Below, one piece after another: positions 2,878-24,220 of a stretch of DNA of 36,073 bases; the first letter of the stretch is position 1; every line of letters begins with the position of its first letter. Source of the DNA: a virus. The position numbers and the translations under genes are program-made. The DNA lies in the IMG/VR virus record IMGVR_UViG_3300042894_003492, positions 1-36,073 of that record. One strand, 5' to 3'. The notes under the pieces are model-generated. The model did not search any database. It was not told the DNA's origin and saw nothing but the letters and a program-made list of their open reading frames with translations.

Positions 2878-3354
2878 TTATTGTTTAGCTACAACCCATA
2901 CAAATTTATTGCCACCCATATAATTCACAGTGGTTGTTGCAACTGTTTGCCAATTATGCTCGTTTGAATATCTAGTAATAATTCGTTGATACAAACTTTT
3001 TAGTTTTGCATGATCAGTAGCGCAACCAAAATACAGCGTATCTACTTTATTATCATATACAAACTTAACTAATGTTTGCATAATGGTACTGAATACCGCT
3101 AACGCCTCATGTTTACCTGTGTCGGTATCTACTGGCATTCCATTTACTATTGCAGCAAACGAGAAAAAGAAGGTGTTATCCGTTAGCGCTTGATCCGGGA
3201 TAGCTTCATGTATTGGATTACCTTCTTCTACTTTAATCATTTGAATAGCGTACTGATTGCGATTAACAGCAAACATACCCATATGAGCTGGGCCCATATT
3301 CATCCAATGCACAGTCGGGATATCACGATCTTTTAATATCTCGTTTAATAACAT
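2878..3354 (-). CDS. Late protein of unknown function with capsid-targeting-like N-terminus
   Basis: 158 residues, not recognised. The N-terminus MLLNEILKDRD follows the M-x-L-x-E-I pattern shared by seven other proteins in this window; see the finding on capsid targeting. The rest contains a hydrophobic FFFSFAAIV stretch near residue 62 and a compact alternating pattern suggesting a small alpha/beta fold. No catalytic motif is obvious. The start shares one base with the stop of the upstream gene (TAATG), so both are translated from the transcript that starts at the late element near 4563. A head-packaged role is inferred from N-terminus and operon, not shown. Confidence 0.75.
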   Translation of the reverse strand: MLLNEILKDRDIPTVHWMNMGPAHMGMFAVNRNQYAIQMIKVEEGNPIHEAIPDQALTDNTFFFSFAAIVNGMPVDTDTGKHEALAVFSTIMQTLVKFVYDNKVDTLYFGCATDHAKLKSLYQRIITRYSNEHNWQTVATTTVNYMGGNKFVWVVAKQ

Positions 3355-4529
3355 TATTTTGATTCCGGTACGTGGTAGTATTTTTTAATTAAGAAATTCA
3401 AAAACTCAGTGTACTCTGGAATTTTACTCAATTCAGCAATATCTTCTTTAGGTATCGCAGTATTATCCTCTTGCATGAATTGATCTTTTTCCATATGTAA
3501 TTGAAAACGACGTTTCATACCTTTAAGTTTAGTAAAGATAATATAAATCTTACCTTTACCTTCACCATGGTAAGTATCAAACTGTGTACGTTCAACATGA
3601 GGTGCTTTTTCAGAATGTCCCAGTAAGCCTGTACACCAACCAACAGCTGCTTTGGGATAATAATCATTAAGCAACACACCACCAAAATACATTGAAGCAA
3701 ATTTATTATTCACTGTAAATGCATGAAATGTATCGTTAGTCGATGGTGACCCAACGATATTAGTAATACCTGATTCAGCTGTATGTTCAGCTTCAATAGC
3801 AGTCATATTATGTATTACATGACCGTATTCATCTTTAACAGGTTTACCGTCCTTCCCCATAACATTTTGATAAATAACATGCTTTTGACCCGCGGCGTAA
3901 ACCTTAGCTTTTTGTTCATTATCTAATTTTGTTTTGTTGGCATCGTCTAATTTAGGAACAATATCTTTTTGAAATGTTGCATATGTGTGATTATTAAGGT
4001 CAGTATTTACACCACCTTTCTTTAATGCAGCCCGTATTGCTTTATCGTCAAACTTCTTTAGATTGGTTTGAAGAGTCGTTAAATCCCCTATATGCAAATC
4101 TCTAGGCGCTTTTTTTGTACCTATGAATCTCGAGATAATCCATTTAAAATATGGATTATTAACAGTAGCAGTAACGTTGGGTCCAACATTAGTTGTATCT
4201 GTAATGTACTTAACAATTTCTTTTACACTTTTATCTTCTGCACCACCATCCTCCAGATAAGCAGCTTTGATCTGTGTTGCCAAATTAGCAATTGCGTACT
4301 CCTCATTTGGACCCTCAAGTAGCAGCCAATTATCAACCGCATACTCATCTAACTCATTTTCAGATACTAATCCAGCTAATTGCAACCAGCGACTATATTC
4401 AGATGATTTATCAGTCTCTGTTAACGTTGTTTTTTCTGGCAGCATAGTTACACTAGCTGGTAATTCTGCTACCTTATCGTGGCTCTCAGAAACTAATCCG
4501 GCCAACTGTAACATTCTATTAAGTTCCAT
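3354..4529 (-). CDS. Putative internal head protein with duplicated LQLAGLVSE motif and WCTG/FQLH C-terminal domain
   Basis: 391 residues. The N-terminus carries the motif LQLAGLVSE twice, at about residues 7-15 and 49-57, each ending in V-S-E, which resembles a cleavage site for the gp21-type prohead protease encoded just upstream on the other strand. The middle (about 75-230) is charged and helical. The C-terminal third has GWCTG, a GKGKIYIIF strand, RRFQLHMEKDQFMQEDN and a helical end; from memory this WCT...FQ.H...FM.E.D pattern recurs in uncharacterised proteins of large myophages. The ATG at 4529 follows AGGT and lies 33 bases downstream of a GATAAATA late element. I infer a late virion-internal protein; its activity is unknown. 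Confidence 0.8.
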   Translation of the reverse strand: MELNRMLQLAGLVSESHDKVAELPASVTMLPEKTTLTETDKSSEYSRWLQLAGLVSENELDEYAVDNWLLLEGPNEEYAIANLATQIKAAYLEDGGAEDKSVKEIVKYITDTTNVGPNVTATVNNPYFKWIISRFIGTKKAPRDLHIGDLTTLQTNLKKFDDKAIRAALKKGGVNTDLNNHTYATFQKDIVPKLDDANKTKLDNEQKAKVYAAGQKHVIYQNVMGKDGKPVKDEYGHVIHNMTAIEAEHTAESGITNIVGSPSTNDTFHAFTVNNKFASMYFGGVLLNDYYPKAAVGWCTGLLGHSEKAPHVERTQFDTYHGEGKGKIYIIFTKLKGMKRRFQLHMEKDQFMQEDNTAIPKEDIAELSKIPEYTEFLNFLIKKYYHVPESK

Positions 4530-4562: not shown

Positions 4563-4570
4563 TATTTATC
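4563..4570 (-). promoter_or_regulatory. Late promoter element (GATAAATA)
   Basis: On the minus strand this reads GATAAATA, one mismatch from the T4 late consensus TATAAATA, 33 bases before the ATG at 4529. It is divergent to the duplicated late element of the prohead protease gene. Confidence 0.7.
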
Positions 4571-4581
4571 GTGCTATTAGC

Positions 4582-4589
4582 TATAAATA
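4582..4589 (+). promoter_or_regulatory. Late promoter, first copy (TATAAATA)
   Basis: Exact match to the T4 late consensus, inside the first 62-bp repeat. A transcript from here would contain both copies of the ribosome binding site and the 13-codon leader frame. Confidence 0.8.
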
Positions 4590-4623
4590 TTATAATAATT
4601 TAATATTTAGGTGTAATCAAGCA

Positions 4624-4665
4624 ATGAAAACAGAACTATTAGCTATAAATATTATAATAATTTAA
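4624..4665 (+). other. 13-codon leader reading frame created by the duplication
   Basis: ATG at 4624 with its own AGGTG ribosome binding site; the peptide begins MKTELL like the protease and then runs into repeat sequence (AINIIII) and stops. It is probably a by-product of the duplication. It could reduce or modulate translation of the real start at 4686 on the longer transcript. Confidence 0.5.
4644..4651 (+). promoter_or_regulatory. Late promoter, second copy (TATAAATA)
   Basis: Identical to the first copy, 34 bases before the protease ATG at 4686. This spacing matches other late genes of the window, so it is the expected promoter of the gene. Confidence 0.82.
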
Positions 4666-4685
4666 TATTTAGGTGTAATCAAGCA

Positions 4686-5321
4686 ATGAAAACAGAACTA
4701 TTAGTAGAAACCTTATCTTACGAGCAAGGCAACCTAATTCAAGAAGCTTCTACCGATGGTAAGAACTTATTCTTGAGTGGTTGCTTTATGGAGTCAGAAG
4801 TCCGTAATAGAAACGGTCGTATATATCCAATTGCAGAAATGCAAGCAGCCGTACATAAATTAAACGAATCAATTAAAAACGATGGTGGTATTTTTGGTGA
4901 ATTAGATCACCCAAATTCATTAGTTGTTTCTAGTGATCGTATCAGTCACGTAATTACTGATCTTAGACTTGAAGGTAATCAGGTTTTTGGTAAAGCAAAA
5001 ATCTTAGGTACTCCAATGGGTCAAATTGCTAAAGTGTTGATCACTGAAAGTGGCGTTAAAATGGGTGTTAGTAGCCGTGGTGCTGGTGATGTTAACGAAA
5101 GTGGTATCGTTAGTGGATTTAACTTAATTACTATTGATATCGTATCGACACCAAGTTGCTCAAGTGCATACCCATCCTCAATATATGAGTCATTAGAATC
5201 AAGTAAAACTGGTCGCATTGTTATGTCATTAGCAGAATCAGTTCGCGAAGATCAATCAGCACAAAAATACTTAGTTGCTGAAGTTAAAAAATGGTTAAGA
5301 CAAGAATATAAACTTGGTTAA
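4686..5321 (+). CDS. 21: Prohead core protein protease (gp21-type)
   Basis: 211 residues, matching T4 gp21 (212). It is the serine protease that matures the prohead by cutting scaffold, capsid and internal proteins after short L/I-x-E motifs. NRNGRIYP near residue 41 is the typical substrate-strand region, GELDHP holds the probable catalytic His75, and GVSSRG holds the probable nucleophile Ser129 or Ser130; IDIVSTPSC follows near 152. The start is ATG at 4686 with AGGTG upstream, in the second copy of a perfect 62-bp duplication. A strong terminator follows the stop. The gp22/gp23-type scaffold and capsid genes that normally follow gp21 are not in the window. Confidence 0.95.
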   Translation: MKTELLVETLSYEQGNLIQEASTDGKNLFLSGCFMESEVRNRNGRIYPIAEMQAAVHKLNESIKNDGGIFGELDHPNSLVVSSDRISHVITDLRLEGNQVFGKAKILGTPMGQIAKVLITESGVKMGVSSRGAGDVNESGIVSGFNLITIDIVSTPSCSSAYPSSIYESLESSKTGRIVMSLAESVREDQSAQKYLVAEVKKWLRQEYKLG

Positions 5322-8800: not shown

Positions 8801-9574
8801 GCACTAAAAAAGACAATTGAAGTACCAGCAAGTCAACAATTAGAACAAGAATCTGCACTTAATCGTATGAAAAATGGTGCAAGTATTGAGGAGGTCAAAG
8901 CACAAGGTGAAGCGCTACAAAAAGCACAAGAGCCTGCATATCTTGAAGCTGAAAAAACTCTAGCTGATACGTTAAATCACATTTCATCGCTATTTGATGG
9001 GTTAGCTGGCGCTGTTGCAACTGCAGTAGCGGCACTAGTGTTAGGCGGTGGTGCGTTACAAAAAGGTGTTGGGTTAGCTAGAGCAGCCGGAACTGCAGCA
9101 ACTGCGATAGAAGGTGCGGGTATGTTAACTATGGCGGGTGAAGCTATTGCCGGTATAGGTACTATGGTTGCTGGGGCAGTGTCATCACCGGTAGTGCTTG
9201 GTGCACTTGGAGCTGCGGCAGTAGGTTATGCTGGATACGAGGCTTATAAGTACTTTTCAGATGATGATAAATCTGAAGGTACTGCAAAACCAGCTGCTGA
9301 TGCTAATAAACAAACTGCGGTTCAAATTACACCTGATGAACCTAAAAAACTACCATCGACTCAAATTACAGAATCATTAAGTAATGAAATATCAGCTACA
9401 ATTGCTGATGTCGGTAAACAATTACTAACATTCCTTGGTAGCGTTCCAGGTGATGTTACAAATACAGCTGCTTCAAATGCAGCGTTACTAGAGGTGATGA
9501 GCAACTGGGTTAAATCACAATCTAACCTAACTCCAGTGCCCGTTATAACACCGCAACCAAACGTTACACGGTAG
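5864..9574 (+). CDS. Very large virion protein, possibly the tail tape measure
   Basis: 1236 residues starting at an ATG behind AGGTGAAAG and a late element. The protein is Ala/Thr/Gln-rich and predominantly helical, with long stretches that look like coiled coil. A compact region (about 760-870) has LGMSKEATEEFAKAVL-type helices as seen in tape-measure central domains. A hydrophobic Ala/Gly-rich block at about 1040-1135 (AGAVATAVAALVLGGGA, then GIGTMVAGAV) could be two or three membrane-active segments, and the end is Pro/Asn-rich. Length, composition and neighbourhood with spike and baseplate genes favour a tape measure or an ejected internal protein; T4 gp29 is half this size and I see no direct match. 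It has no capsid-targeting-like start. It overlaps the convergent gene by 11 bases. Confidence 0.7.
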   Translation: MALDNNEVLRLQRIIYDISGAASDFAKSVRTISEAQNNQGQNTVNLGNKSKAAADQLGAFKSAIETATKSSKTANALLGEQLKTLNRSIEAEKRQQESIKTITDAYNTGANSVNNYVSHTVSALTRSNAKISSSWKSITDNTANAVNDQFKQFGSVVDAQQYQKAFAEFNTAMGLSGNNITRANMSIVQAFVNAGTAIGETTTEFHHVRENLAKAVRENNDVSVDPANITAIDATVTALATGTQSVVDRLLTLNTALSSMTVNTSTVGNALTEIQTYQEDYAALLSSLGPYGGQFQDELQELTKTLDGAKLEQAKTAFLTKLQSTSGIIDKQDASGENTAVFDALTELLRVGRNADGTAKVQGKWFEELIKVNDQLTNAMTGVSSVNVNTSITEDAVKNLLAAQVGFVTDIKNSFSQVHADILNEAVAATASQLGRDHVSVLTAVENYAAQSISAFEANGARVLSEAAKTFADGSEVELQNTVVALVREALVGSNNQADELKSYEQLKYIGDYNQYMAQLTEKLLSTNQILGKEDTKLLQNLIKSGKDSGITDSAMLDALADIQAKVATGIDVKVADSVTNKLTESQAQLSDAFSRTAVDLEGYNKGQGKALATLRSSNTATGKMLAELAAIKRNNGSISGRDVRGAVETAGGGGAIAKEVLGAVGNMVKAVYGFAKDVNKFTSTEYDAFVSNNIQLDRTATGSTNATKLDLGEADFMKVFSDYKTAWVNEGVGAITQQMQATHDQYERVYGTDPQVIAKNQLAFKQLSQITGLTTDQIADMQHSMKQMSTVVGLSTQEMTDMTMNISKDAAFRSTLQKMNSADRAARVMQIQKQVEFAAALGMSKEATEEFAKAVLTVGEGLSPDEILGDVGGITNFVATLSQAGQQVGVSAADYGLSTDKMNAYNDALMIDASARTEEQNKLVAETGTQIAKFQNDIKQAQTEKIKGAATPEEKKSLSMQFSGVNTIAQQSEAKLSDALKKTIEVPASQQLEQESALNRMKNGASIEEVKAQGEALQKAQEPAYLEAEKTLADTLNHISSLFDGLAGAVATAVAALVLGGGALQKGVGLARAAGTAATAIEGAGMLTMAGEAIAGIGTMVAGAVSSPVVLGALGAAAVGYAGYEAYKYFSDDDKSEGTAKPAADANKQTAVQITPDEPKKLPSTQITESLSNEISATIADVGKQLLTFLGSVPGDVTNTAASNAALLEVMSNWVKSQSNLTPVPVITPQPNVTR

Positions 9575-10619
9575 GTTGTTGACCTTGTTGTGCAGGTTGT
9601 TGTTCTGGTTGTGTTTGCTGTGCAGGTTGAGCAGCTCCACGAGCAGTTGCTTGCTTATTAATCATAGCTAATTGCTGCTGTAATCTACGAATCTGATCAT
9701 CATATAATTTACTTGCACGAGCTTTTTGTACAGATATTGCAGCAATTTTGGTTTGAATTGCATTTACATTAGCTGTAATATCTTCATTCATAATATCGTT
9801 AAAATTCATAACACCTTCATAGGTTGGAGTATTAGTTACTTCATTACGGTATTTCGCTAATTTAGCCAATCTATCCGCTTCTTTCTTTTCTTCAGCTTGC
9901 TTCTTAAAGTGCTCTTCAGCACGAAGCATATCTTCTTCATTTTTAACTTTAGTGTTAGTTAATTGAATAGTTAACTTTGCTTGCTCAGCTTCAGCTTGAG
10001 CTGTCTTTGCTTTTGCTTCAGCCGTTTTTGAATCAGCATCCGCTTTTAACATATCAATAACTTTAAGTAGTATGCTTGAATCATCTACAGCAGGTGCTGC
10101 CGGTGGTAGCTCAGCAGGTAGTTCACCTTCTGCTCCCTCTGGTGGAACATCACCCTCAGGTTTATCACCATCTTTTTTGGTATCAAGCACATTATCAACT
10201 TCTTCATCTTCTGGTAGCTTTGGCCACTCAACATATAAGATATCAAAAGAGTTTCTTAAGTTAAATAAAATTTCGTTAACATCAACGTGATCTTCATCTT
10301 GTAATATCTTACTTAACGCTTGTTTAAACTCACCATCTTGCTCTTTGCTAACATATACTTTTGTAATATTACCATCAGCATCTTCTATACCATACGCTAC
10401 AGAATCTTGTTTAAGCTCATTTGCTTTTTCTGCACCTTGTAATTTTGATACTACATCAACACTACTAAAATCATTAACTTTTTTATCTTCTGTCAACTTG
10501 TACTTTTTCTTACGCTTACGTGTTATTGGTTTTGAAAACATTGGCGCACGAAATCCAGCGATATCTCCACCAGAGATCGCAGCGTCACCGCTTTCATTTA
10601 AATAATCTGTCAGTCTCAT
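9564..10619 (-). CDS. Putative internal/structural protein with capsid-targeting-like N-terminus and coiled coil
   Basis: 351 residues from the ATG at 10619; an in-frame GTG at 10631 would lie between CGGAG and the ATG, so the ATG is preferred. It begins MRLTDYLNESGDAAISGGDI; L-N-E followed by Ser is a good match to a gp21-type cleavage site. A basic KPITRKRKKKYK patch lies near residues 30-41. Residues about 140-190 are Pro/Glu-rich, 190-250 form a continuous charged Ala/Lys/Glu coiled coil, and 265-320 another helical segment. The last 30 residues are Gln/Pro/Ala low complexity. It has a perfect TATAAATA element 41 bases upstream. Function is unknown; a packaged or scaffold-type structural role is inferred. 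Confidence 0.72.
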   Translation of the reverse strand: MRLTDYLNESGDAAISGGDIAGFRAPMFSKPITRKRKKKYKLTEDKKVNDFSSVDVVSKLQGAEKANELKQDSVAYGIEDADGNITKVYVSKEQDGEFKQALSKILQDEDHVDVNEILFNLRNSFDILYVEWPKLPEDEEVDNVLDTKKDGDKPEGDVPPEGAEGELPAELPPAAPAVDDSSILLKVIDMLKADADSKTAEAKAKTAQAEAEQAKLTIQLTNTKVKNEEDMLRAEEHFKKQAEEKKEADRLAKLAKYRNEVTNTPTYEGVMNFNDIMNEDITANVNAIQTKIAAISVQKARASKLYDDQIRRLQQQLAMINKQATARGAAQPAQQTQPEQQPAQQGQQPTV

Positions 10620-10646
10620 TATGCTATACACTCCGGAGATACAACT

Positions 10647-15574: not shown

Positions 15575-16147
15575 ATGAAATTATACGAAATCGCAGTTCC
15601 AGATGTAGATATTGCTAAATTAAAGCAGTTATGTGCTCCTTATATTGAAGTATTAAAGCATACTGACGGTGCTCCATTATTTCGTGGATATAAAGGTAGT
15701 AGATTTACCAACGTTGAAGGTTTTAATGTAATAGAACCTAACTTAAATAGAGTTCCGGTTGATACCCCTCGAGTGCTACACGATGCACTAAATCAATCGT
15801 TCAAGCGTGCATTTGGTTTTCCATATCGCAATGGCGTTTTTGCATCTAGCAGTTATGATGATGCACGGTATTACGGACCGGTTTATGCGGTGTTTCCAAT
15901 TGGCGAATTGCACTATATTTGGAGCAAACAAATTAGTGATTTATATGTTCAATTGGATAAAACCTTTGACTTTGAGACACTTGAAAGCTCTAAACAATCA
16001 TTAATAAATGCTGTTGCTAGCATAGCTGATGCGTATCAAAATAATGAATTGGATAAAGCTATACAAACAGGTCATGAAGTTATGCTTAACAATAAGTGTA
16101 TTATGATTCAAAATTATGGTATGATTAAAGATGCGGTGATGTCGTGA
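15575..16147 (+). CDS. Paralogue A of a three-gene family; possible ADP-ribosyltransferase-like packaged protein
   Basis: 190 residues beginning MKLYEIAVPD, a capsid-targeting-like start. Homologous along its length to the next two proteins. Shared landmarks are C-x-P-Y-I near 20, LFRG (Arg37), V-D-T-P near 62, YRNGVFASSS (85-93), YAVFPIGELHYIWS (104-117) and GHEVM with Glu168. The order Arg-Gly, then F-x-S/T-S, then E-x-x near the end resembles the R-S-E layout of mono-ADP-ribosyltransferases such as T4 Alt, a protein packaged in the head. From memory, similar RG ... RS-x-x-FvTG ... E-v-M proteins are common and uncharacterised in myophages. The fold is inference. The late element at 15540 precedes it; the stop overlaps the next start (GTGA). 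Confidence 0.72.
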   Translation: MKLYEIAVPDVDIAKLKQLCAPYIEVLKHTDGAPLFRGYKGSRFTNVEGFNVIEPNLNRVPVDTPRVLHDALNQSFKRAFGFPYRNGVFASSSYDDARYYGPVYAVFPIGELHYIWSKQISDLYVQLDKTFDFETLESSKQSLINAVASIADAYQNNELDKAIQTGHEVMLNNKCIMIQNYGMIKDAVMS

Positions 16148-16782
16148 GATTACATGAAGTTATAGATGCAACTGATTTATCACATATTGTTGAAACTATT
16201 AAGCAGCATTGCGGACCGTATATTGAAATACTAAAGCAAAATAACGGTGATTGCTTGTTTAGAGGTAGTAATAGCGGTAAAGCCTATCCAGGTCATATTA
16301 ACTTAATTAAACCTAGATTAGATAGAACTCCATTAGATACGCCTAGATTAATACATAAGTTTTTAAATCAAGAGTTTCAAACAAAATTTCATTTTCCGTT
16401 ACGTAATGGAATATTTGCCACAGGTAATCAACCACGTGCAGCTGGATATGGTTCCGTCAGCGTAGTGTTCCCAGTAGGTGAATTAAATTTCATCTGGAGC
16501 CCTAATATAGAAGATCTGTTTGCTGTTGTTGACACTACAATTGCTAACTTGGGAGATGGTACAGCGTTTGATCCAGATGAGGATCGTTTAGACAGTACTT
16601 TACCTGCTAGTGACTACAACAATAAGCTGCTGCTTGATAAACTCAATCAATATATTAATACCTATACAAATAAAGATTTACTTGCAGCTACTGCCAGTGA
16701 TCACGAAATAATGTTTGCAAATGATTGCTATATGGTTAGTATCTATGATTATGGAAAAGTAGTTCAGGAGTTAATAAAATGA
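16144..16782 (+). CDS. Paralogue B of the family; possible ADP-ribosyltransferase-like packaged protein
   Basis: 212 residues starting at GTG 16144 inside GTGA, translationally coupled to paralogue A. N-terminus MRLHEVIDATD fits the shared capsid-targeting-like pattern. Landmarks line up with its neighbours: C-G-P-Y-I (23-27), LFRG with Arg40, PLDTPRLIH (63-71), LRNGIFATGN (86-95), VVFPVGELNFIWSP (107-120), and HEIM with Glu188. An insertion of about 20 acidic residues (GDGTAFDPDEDRLDS) lies before the last conserved block, longer than in A. The second motif is A-T-G rather than A-S-S, so a strict S-T-S element is absent. Confidence 0.72.
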   Translation: MRLHEVIDATDLSHIVETIKQHCGPYIEILKQNNGDCLFRGSNSGKAYPGHINLIKPRLDRTPLDTPRLIHKFLNQEFQTKFHFPLRNGIFATGNQPRAAGYGSVSVVFPVGELNFIWSPNIEDLFAVVDTTIANLGDGTAFDPDEDRLDSTLPASDYNNKLLLDKLNQYINTYTNKDLLAATASDHEIMFANDCYMVSIYDYGKVVQELIK

Positions 16783-17372
16783 AACTAAATGAAATTCTTA
16801 ATAATGATAATCATAGCATCGATGAAATTGTAGCAATATTAAAACGTGATTGTGCTCCAATTATTGCGGAGTATAATAACGTTGGGGTGCCATTATCTCG
16901 AGGAATACAAGATAGCAATATACCACCAATGACCGTTATTCATCCATCACTAGATAGTAGAAGTCCTAAAGATACTAATATAACGATTCATAATTATATT
17001 AACGATTACTTTACTAAGCATGCTGGGTTACCATTCCGTAATGCGATCTTTGCAACCTCTGATTGGGAAGTTGCAGAAGTTTATGGTGAAGCATATGTGT
17101 TGTTTCCTATTGGACCATTAAAGTACTTGTGGAGCCCTCAAGTAGGTGATTTGTACGATACAGTGTCAAAGCTTGAATCTAGTAAAGATGCAGATCCAGC
17201 AAAAAAATATGATCAACAATTCTATCAAAAATTAGATCAATATCTTTCAACATATATATCTAAGAACCTCCACGCAGCATTAGAAGATGGTAGTGAAGTT
17301 ATGATTGCTAATAACTGTTACGTGGTCACAATGGACTTATGGTTTGATCATTTAGAAGAGGCACTTTCATGA
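16779..17372 (+). CDS. Paralogue C of the family; possible ADP-ribosyltransferase-like packaged protein
   Basis: 197 residues, coupled to paralogue B through ATGA. It begins MKLNEILNNDN, the closest to the shared N-terminal pattern. Landmarks are C-A-P-I-I (25-29), LSRG with Arg41, SPKDTNITIH (62-71), FRNAIFATSD (86-95), VLFPIGPLKYLWSP (107-120) and SEVM with Glu173. The three paralogues have diverged widely outside these blocks, which suggests an old duplication with different targets rather than a recent copy. The stop overlaps the start of the kinase gene (ATGA). Confidence 0.72.
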   Translation: MKLNEILNNDNHSIDEIVAILKRDCAPIIAEYNNVGVPLSRGIQDSNIPPMTVIHPSLDSRSPKDTNITIHNYINDYFTKHAGLPFRNAIFATSDWEVAEVYGEAYVLFPIGPLKYLWSPQVGDLYDTVSKLESSKDADPAKKYDQQFYQKLDQYLSTYISKNLHAALEDGSEVMIANNCYVVTMDLWFDHLEEALS

Positions 17373-18097
17373 AATTGCATGACATATTATCAGAAGGAAT
17401 CTACGACAAAGGTATTTTTAAGTGCTTATTCTTAGGTGGTATTCCTGCTAGTGGAAAAAGCACAATCGTGAAAGATATTATTCAAGAACTAACTGTATCA
17501 CATAGCATTAAACCACGCGTATTAGATTACGATAAATTTTATGAATACTTGAGCAAGAAGCATGATGTACCTATTAGTACAAGCGCTGAAGTTGAGGCTC
17601 CAGGAGCAGTATCAATTCAAAATAGAACTAAAGAGTTAATGTCATCACAACTTGAGTTATACCTAACCAGTATGCTACCAGTTATTATTGACACTACCGC
17701 ATCTAATGTTCATAGCACTATCGTGCGTATGCGTAGACTACGTCAATACGGTTATGATGTAATGATGTTATATAAAGAATCTGAATTAGAGCGATCATTA
17801 ACTCGGGCTGAATCACGTAGACGCTTTGTGCCACCAGAGTATATTAAAGATACGCACGAATCAAAACCTAGAACGATTGAAAAGATGCAAAAAGTGTTTA
17901 ATAATGCACACTATCCGTTGCAAATACTAGGTGTAGATGAGGAGGTGGTGACTGTAATGCCTGCTATAGTACAATTCTTTACTAGTCCAATACGTAATCC
18001 TATTGGCTTGCAGCAGGTTGATAGTCTAAAATCTGCAGAACGTAAATATATTATACGTGGGCAGACTCCTCCAGTTGATTGGTATGGAAAATATTAA
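17369..18097 (+). CDS. P-loop kinase (zeta-toxin/AAA-like) with capsid-targeting-like N-terminus
   Basis: 242 residues, last gene of the coupled four-gene cluster. N-terminus MKLHDILSEGIYDKGIFK contains L-S-E followed by Gly, a good gp21-type cleavage site. Walker A is GGIPASGKST at 23-32. A hydrophobic strand ending in D-T-T (VIIDTTAS, about 106-112) takes the Walker B position as in zeta-toxin and polynucleotide-kinase relatives, and an Arg-rich lid (RAESRRRFVPPEY) follows. The C-terminal segment FFTSPIRNPIGLQQV is a separate small element that I recall in other phage proteins of this type. Substrate unknown: a nucleotide, nucleic acid or protein phosphorylation role is possible. It overlaps the convergent gene by four bases. 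Confidence 0.8.
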   Translation: MKLHDILSEGIYDKGIFKCLFLGGIPASGKSTIVKDIIQELTVSHSIKPRVLDYDKFYEYLSKKHDVPISTSAEVEAPGAVSIQNRTKELMSSQLELYLTSMLPVIIDTTASNVHSTIVRMRRLRQYGYDVMMLYKESELERSLTRAESRRRFVPPEYIKDTHESKPRTIEKMQKVFNNAHYPLQILGVDEEVVTVMPAIVQFFTSPIRNPIGLQQVDSLKSAERKYIIRGQTPPVDWYGKY

Positions 18098-23203: not shown

Positions 23204-24220
23204 CTAGCCAGCTTTTGACTTGAATAATTCAAGATTGTGAATAAGCGTATCGTGAACCCATGGGAACTTAACGTTGCGCTTAGCATAATCAAACAAGCTT
23301 ACTGGGCTATCATTTAACGCAGATTGCTGATACGTGGCAAGATTTGTACGGACATTATTAAAATCTACTACACCGTTAAGCCATACTAACAATAACAATT
23401 TAACATCTGTATCGCTACGACCGTGTAAGAATTCATACAATGAGCGATCTGCAGCTTTTGATTCTAACAACCGTTGAAGTTTCTGACATAACTCACCAGA
23501 TATTGATCTTAAAATAACACTCACTTTTTTAGTTTTATCATCTAATGCTTCTTCAAGAGCATCAATGTTGTAAATGCTCAGTAACTCTGATTTACGTTTC
23601 GTAAAATCATTATTGAAAATAGTATCTAGAACAACTAGTTTGTCTTTGTTTAGTAGCAGTACTTGTACTTGCTCACCATCGTGAATTAGTTCATTAGAGT
23701 CTGCAAACCCACTATAATTTAAAGCAAGTAGAATTTTAGCCCATTGTTGTTGATATCTTTCAGGACTTAACTCTTTAGCAATGTATTTTGTTAATTGCCA
23801 GAACGCTTCAAATGGTTGTTTGTATGCAATGCGCTCAAGTTCTTTATCTAGATTAACTAAATGTGAGTATCTATTTTTTAAAACATTAATATCGTTTTCT
23901 AAGTTTCTATATCTATCAGTAGCTAAGATTTCGTGTGGAAATTTTATGATATGAATATATGGGTGGTTGTTTGCATACGGATAATTGTCAAAGTTTTGAT
24001 TTTGCTCAACATTATACTTAGCCCAAGTTGACTTTAGCGGGTAAGCATATATTCCGGCTGGAGCGTCGGTTGACTTAGTGCTAATCGGTGGCTTACTGTT
24101 TTTTGACATACTAATATAAACAGCAGCATCATTCTTATACGGTAGCAACTGCTCATACGCTGATCGTTTTGTTTTAGGTGCTGAAGATTCTTCAGCTTCA
24201 AATAATTCATATAATTTCAT
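23204..24220 (-). CDS. Putative packaged protein with capsid-targeting-like N-terminus and 'GIYAYPL' motif
   Basis: 338 residues beginning MKLYELFEAEESSAPK, which fits the shared N-terminal pattern and has L-F-E followed by Ala as a possible protease site. Residues about 33-60 read VYISMSKNSKPPIS ... APAGIYAYPL. From memory, 'iSfT...G(I)...TP.GIYaYPL' proteins recur uncharacterised in many myophages, usually with similar starts. The rest is helical with no known catalytic motif. There is no clear Shine-Dalgarno before the ATG, but a perfect TATAAATA lies 30 bases upstream. Its stop abuts the convergent early operon with no gap. Confidence 0.76.
   Translation of the reverse strand: MKLYELFEAEESSAPKTKRSAYEQLLPYKNDAAVYISMSKNSKPPISTKSTDAPAGIYAYPLKSTWAKYNVEQNQNFDNYPYANNHPYIHIIKFPHEILATDRYRNLENDINVLKNRYSHLVNLDKELERIAYKQPFEAFWQLTKYIAKELSPERYQQQWAKILLALNYSGFADSNELIHDGEQVQVLLLNKDKLVVLDTIFNNDFTKRKSELLSIYNIDALEEALDDKTKKVSVILRSISGELCQKLQRLLESKAADRSLYEFLHGRSDTDVKLLLLVWLNGVVDFNNVRTNLATYQQSALNDSPVSLFDYAKRNVKFPWVHDTLIHNLELFKSKAG

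Follow-up and report, generated by a model that had tools for sequence, protein, structure and literature searches.

According to PMC9026906, the internal proteins of phage T4 carry N-terminal targeting peptides (CTS) of 10–19 residues that are removed by the gp21 protease after an L/I-x-E site. For giant phages, PMC5694885 describes several cuts within one propeptide. Head targeting by a short leader is already known; the putative case described here has another motif and a link to the C-terminal tail of the scaffold. A description of a motif of this type was not found in the open-licence papers searched.

The window, that is, the whole stretch of DNA that was analysed, is a complete virus record of 36,073 bases. 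Contig G001 differs from it at 5 positions across 26,775 overlapping bases and carries on to the capsid genes. The gene under study opens with an ATG at 4529, its stop codon ends at 3354, and it adjoins a gp21-type protease gene back to back. As in the T4-type CTS phages, the protease is encoded by the phage.

3354..4529, minus strand: ORF of 391 aa, a putative late head-targeted protein (the window protein), with orthologs beside the protease in L034, L035–L038 and L040–L044.
4686..5321, plus strand: gp21-type prohead protease, the candidate processor of the boxes described below (Pfam Peptidase_S77, E 7.8e-23; PHROG 207, head maturation protease, E 2.3e-56).

The window protein contains the peptide LQLAGLVSE twice, at residues 7–15 (window 4485–4511) and 49–57 (4359–4385), the positions given in an earlier sequence-only reading. 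That reading was also correct that the DNA of the copies has diverged at third positions: six of nine codons differ, each at the third base (TTA CAG TTG GCC GGA TTA GTT TCT GAG versus TTG CAA TTA GCT GGA TTA GTA TCT GAA). Its claim that selection has kept the peptide holds for the core of the motif, which is conserved, but not for the exact nine residues, which read LQLAGVITE and LQLAGLLTE in the closest relative, L034. The similarity between the copies extends outward as E-x-[NS]-R-[MW]-LQLAGLVSE. Since the longest exact repeat in 2000 shuffles of the protein never exceeded six residues, a nine-residue repeat is not attributable to chance. The helices said to flank the copies are predicted at residues 2–9 and 44–51, solely by a poor AlphaFold2 model calculated from six sequences (mean pLDDT = 41.9). 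The name "LAG box" was coined in this analysis, and the boxes and nearby candidate sites are as follows.

4485..4526, minus strand: LAG box 1, residues 2–15, ELNRMLQLAGLVSE, kept in L034 as ELDRMLQLAGVITE.
4359..4400, minus strand: LAG box 2, residues 44–57, EYSRWLQLAGLVSE, which aligns with the single box of other orthologs; R47, L49, L51, A52 and G53 are invariant in ortholog alignment A1.
4416..4424, minus strand: L-T-E in the linker, residues 36–38, a candidate cleavage site that fits the T4 rule L/I-x-E and is kept in L034 (KTTLTE.DK).
4314..4322, minus strand: L-L-E, residues 70–72, a candidate cleavage site that fits the T4 rule; E72 is invariant in six aligned orthologs.

What the family keeps is the core R-h-L-[QE]-L-A-G-h, in most cases with hydrophobic-x-E behind it. 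This triplet is V-S-E behind both boxes of the window protein, and I-T-E and L-T-E in L034.

Orthologs occupy the same locus adjoining the protease. In L034, where the protease is 94% identical and the window-protein ortholog 52% identical, two boxes are present (MELDRMLQLAGVITES and SDYSRYLQLAGLLTES). A single box is found in the L035–L038 type (MELDRILQLAGLLSES) and in the L040–L044 type, which includes L213 (MQK[DE]LNRLLELAG). Since L034 also has two boxes, the doubling predates the split between it and the window phage, and is best explained by duplication within a leader that originally had a single box. The alignment of the single box with box 2, shortly ahead of the kept E72, suggests that box 1 is the later addition.

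Searches with the whole window protein did not assign it to a family. Pfam returned sub-threshold matches only, and there were no matches in PHROGs at E 0.1, in PADLOC, among PDB sequences with a profile at E 1, or by tblastn against the phage collection at E 0.01. The C-terminal part alone gave no match at E 10. One of two leader-only queries was without matches and the other returned three uninformative terminase matches at E 5. Two of the six aligned orthologs matched PHROG 28193, a family of unknown function, weakly (E 4e-4). Two assignments were considered and rejected. A gp22-type scaffold (PHROG 10922) is recognised by a profile match together with a place between the protease and major capsid genes or beside the latter; PHROGs returned nothing for the window protein at E 0.1, and the phage encodes its scaffold as a separate gene. 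The profile of PHROG 15988, a virion structural protein, was likewise without a match.

The scaffold of the window phage, encoded beside the capsid gene (G001 35433–36392), ends in SYFMKLAGIV. The gene adjoining the capsid gene of XacN1 ends in NMMKLAGIKG, and in a relative of the G025 type the scaffold ends in ILRLAGLG while the cargo box reads ILQLAGL. In the wider phage group, 23 of 24 scaffolds end in [AS]G[ILVM] followed by zero to five residues, and 13 of these read LAG. The 23 are from the window phage, the G025 type, L039, L045, L046, L048, L049, L053, XacN1, RAS14, Cassandra, Atu_ph07, Phosso, SCTP-2, G002/G005, G014, G003, RaK2, CBB, GAP32, slurp01, 7t3 and BF; the sole exception, Slicko01, has a homologous scaffold that lacks the tail. 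The label "scaffold" reflects gene place plus PHROG 10922 or tblastn homology; PHROGs itself assigns no function, and three records (BF, UB and 7t3) annotate the homolog as a scaffolding protein. The tails of L006, L053, L009 and L124–L127 were first spotted through the motif and then judged to belong to scaffolds by their protease and capsid-gene neighbourhood, while the remaining scaffolds were chosen by place, N-terminus or homology. T4 gp22 is without an [AS]G-hydrophobic tail.

Within single phages, the box core occurs among the 68 ORFs of G001 twice in the window protein and once at the scaffold C-terminus, along with two look-alikes that were taken for chance matches. In G025 (81 ORFs) the carriers are the ortholog and the tail of the scaffold, again with look-alikes. 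A box and the scaffold tail of its own phage do not correspond letter for letter: the permutation result is marginal (p = 0.049; 0.027, 0.085 and 0.021 at three lengths), and in RaK2, XacN1 and others, LAG, LSG and NAG are mixed between the scaffold and the boxed protein.

The cyanophage-type scaffolds (L056–L112) keep a different C-terminal helix, SMxxYLxxL-like, and the tail described above is absent from all 48 complete ORFs scanned, duplicates included. From this separate conserved helix, a kept scaffold tail may be general, with a sequence specific to each group. Outside scaffolds, the stretches searched held no convincing carrier of the SMAxYL-like tail, with one match in a 68-aa ORF.

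The box also opens proteins of other phages. A search of viral contigs with the pattern NRML[EKQ]LAG matched 24 stretches, 20 of them in frame. Sixteen of these 20 lie within the first 21 residues of several unrelated proteins, an N-terminal leader common to otherwise unrelated proteins as in the CTS type; one lies at residue 34 and three at residues 290, 311 and 373. A hydrophobic-x-E triplet follows within seven residues in 17 of the 20, compared with a base rate of 13% for seven-residue stretches of these proteins; the 20 include many homologs, and among distinct tails the figure is 9 of 12. A protease search of 20 of the matched contigs, 18 of which have the box in frame, was positive in four, the others being fragments or other phages. 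Wherever a contig held both an NRMLxLAG protein and a protease, a LAG-tailed scaffold adjoined the protease (four of four, in three distinct lineages).

Among cultured phages, an N-terminal box is found in a 362-aa protein of RAS14, in Cassandra_0521 and in two proteins of Atu_ph07, one of them a NUDIX protein; the RAS14 and Cassandra proteins carry additional boxes. XacN1 ORF218 starts with an LSG version, and no credible N-terminal LAG protein was found in XacN1 beyond such LSG forms. A relationship between the RAS14 protein and XacN1 ORF218 was rejected as weak and partly due to low complexity (E 0.067). In the NUDIX protein (L197 19073–19519, equivalent to Atu_ph07 199073–199519; Pfam E 6.3e-11), the leader MNIDKLKKLAGIKK stands in front of the domain and is close to the scaffold tail EINDLKRLAGIKK.

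These counts bear on an account without targeting, in which an amphipathic helix was duplicated by accident and LAG strings recur by chance. The string L..LAG[h] is not rare, with 10 internal matches in five phage sequence sets, and it is modestly enriched at N-termini across those sets (4.3-fold, p = 0.015). Enrichment at C-termini is larger (9.5-fold, p = 6e-4) but is made up of the five scaffolds themselves and is partly circular, since these scaffolds prompted the choice of those genomes. When the E site was included, the box pattern stayed within the shuffle range in seven of eight sequence sets and rose above it only in the window and G001, where three of five matches sit in other proteins. 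Set against these figures, 23 of 24 scaffold tails carry the motif, both boxes are retained between the window phage and L034 despite 52% identity over the whole protein, and the boxes of the structural-protein family discussed next are conserved far above the remaining sequence in seven of seven members. On this balance an account without targeting is improbable.

RaK2 ORF050, annotated as a virion structural protein by RefSeq and belonging to PHROG 15988, contains the boxes LARMMELAGQ and LKRMTQLSGIVTE. Two boxes are present in all seven aligned members of this RaK2-type family, with a column identity of 0.85 for box 1 against a mean of 0.44, and of 0.58 for box 2, about the level of the C-terminal part (0.61). 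The member CBB_213 is listed among the proteins of purified CBB virions identified by mass spectrometry (5 unique peptides, coverage 18.93%; PMC5259590, Table 4). This places a doubly boxed protein in a real virion. The CBB_213 gene clusters with neck and tail genes, and detection in the virion does not place the protein inside the head.

The same family lends some weight to a reading in which the boxes are lasting, uncleaved binding sites by which a structural protein or core component is tied to the shell or a different virion protein, the glutamate being incidental. Its boxes lie deep inside the protein (residue 28 and about residues 140–160), one is followed by QAE rather than hydrophobic-x-E, and CBB_213 is listed in mature virions (PMC5259590, Table 4); the three internal pattern matches noted above point the same way. 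This reading is nevertheless unlikely given the hydrophobic-x-E close behind the box for the window family and the majority of N-terminal cases (the 17 of 20 above), and given that L-T-E in the linker and L-L-E at 70–72 are conserved. It is less probable still that the boxes address tail, neck or other non-head assembly and only secondarily resemble the scaffold tail. While the genes for RaK2 ORF050 and Cassandra_0521 are close to head-closure and tail genes, the motif is borne by the scaffold, a head-core protein, in nearly every case, and the window gene adjoins the prohead protease in all orthologs seen.

The sequence-only reading called the window protein late. The T4 late promoter has the consensus octamer TATAAATA, and there is some support for this timing, as a similar octamer starts 41–45 bases ahead of the start codon in four of four genes checked, as GATAAATA in three and TATAAATA in one.

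4563..4570, minus strand: GATAAATA, an octamer resembling the T4 late promoter, which begins 41 bases upstream of the start codon of the window protein gene.

Overall, TATAAATA is not above chance in the window (5 occurrences, at 4582, 4644, 10661, 24251 and 26148, versus about 10 expected). Those at 4644, 10661 and 24251 start 37–42 bases ahead of a gene start and are likely late promoters. The occurrence at 4582 is a copy within an exact 62-base tandem repeat (4574–4697, also in G001), in which lie the prohead protease start codon and the promoter-like TATAAATA. An ATG is present in both copies, and the one in the first copy opens just a short frame; the stretch of L034 that was read has one such site.

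A second type of N-terminus was also observed. Many other proteins start with an M[KRL]LxE[IL]L-like sequence, often followed by hydrophobic-x-E, that resembles the T4 CTS. With a pattern written after the N-termini had been seen, 7 of 56 ORFs (the window gene included) matched, compared with 1 of 277 internal Met positions.

Window 9564–10631, 15575–18097, 23204–24220 and 2878–3354, and G001 37989–39480: proteins with M[KRL]LxE[IL]L-like leaders.

Window 15575–17372 encodes three paralogs in tandem, which belong to PHROG 11975 (unknown function) and all have a leader of this kind; they are followed by a leader-bearing Zeta_toxin/AAA_33-like kinase at 17369–18097 (Pfam E 5.6e-9).

Since the motif ends the scaffold and recurs in a virion protein, it is probably an address tag into the growing head. 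The preferred reading is that this large T4-type phage uses the doubled LAG boxes to dock one of its late proteins in the prohead and that protease clipping follows, to which a probability of about 0.5 is given. The two boxes would bring the protein into the prohead, where a box, having the form of the scaffold C-terminal tail, would probably occupy the position of that tail, either at the inside surface of the major capsid protein or in the core. Once assembly is complete, the adjoining gp21-type protease would probably cut at hydrophobic-x-E sites that follow the boxes or lie in the linker, and cleavage would free the remainder of the protein inside the head. From the comparisons above, we infer packaging of the protein, its docking partner and its cleavage, as well as the gain from doubling, which may be a tighter or bivalent docking.

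The sequence-only reading had offered two functions for the repeat, targeting and cleavage signals in series or binding sites for the prohead scaffold. Both fit a core that equals the scaffold tail, opens several unrelated proteins, mostly precedes hydrophobic-x-E and occurs twice in a virion-detected family, so that the reading is partly supported. The sites behind the boxes are V-S-E and not L/I-x-E, however, and the proposed order, with the second cut after the first, finds no support. Because this peptide forms the tail of the scaffold itself, the protein may, instead of binding the scaffold, vie with it for its partner, such as the shell.

More tentatively, the C-terminal docking peptide of the scaffold could be a portable address tag, of which one to three copies are found in unrelated late proteins, some with a built-in protease site, such that cargo is loaded by mimicry of the scaffold tail. 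If true, there would be a second code for addressing proteins to the head, alongside the T4 CTS type, and it could be read from the sequence alone. A motif common to the scaffold tail and other proteins is a direct, testable candidate and would help to predict which of the many unnamed large-phage proteins are carried in the head.

Four known systems may be compared with the window protein. In the RaK2 ORF050/CBB_213 family there are also two boxes per protein, and their form, [SA]RM[LM]xLAG, is very like NRMLQLAG of the window protein; however, no overall similarity was found, the boxes lie further inside, and box 1 is followed by QAE. The gp22-type scaffold tail of large T4-type phages (PHROG 10922) shares the core [hydrophobic]-x-[hydrophobic or polar]-L-A-G-[I/L/V], which there forms the very end of the scaffold chain, whereas in the window protein, which is not a scaffold, it is N-terminal and doubled. 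In the giant Salmonella phage SPN3US, as described in PMC5694885, there is more than one protease site per propeptide and the paralogs gp53 and gp54 share identical first 15 residues; in contrast, its propeptides are mostly longer than 100 residues, it belongs to another phage group, and no LAG box was seen in that text. The T4 CTS of IPI–IPIII (PMC9026906) is also a short N-terminal leader on otherwise unrelated proteins, with a gp21-type protease and an E-site near the end of the leader. The window protein differs from it in having another peptide, in two copies, with a motif common to the scaffold C-terminus and V-S-E in place of L/I-x-E, and in being known here by its sequence only. Taking the T4 leaders and the multi-cut propeptides together, the simplest account of the window protein would be a two-copy targeting leader that uses the tail motif of the scaffold and is then cut.
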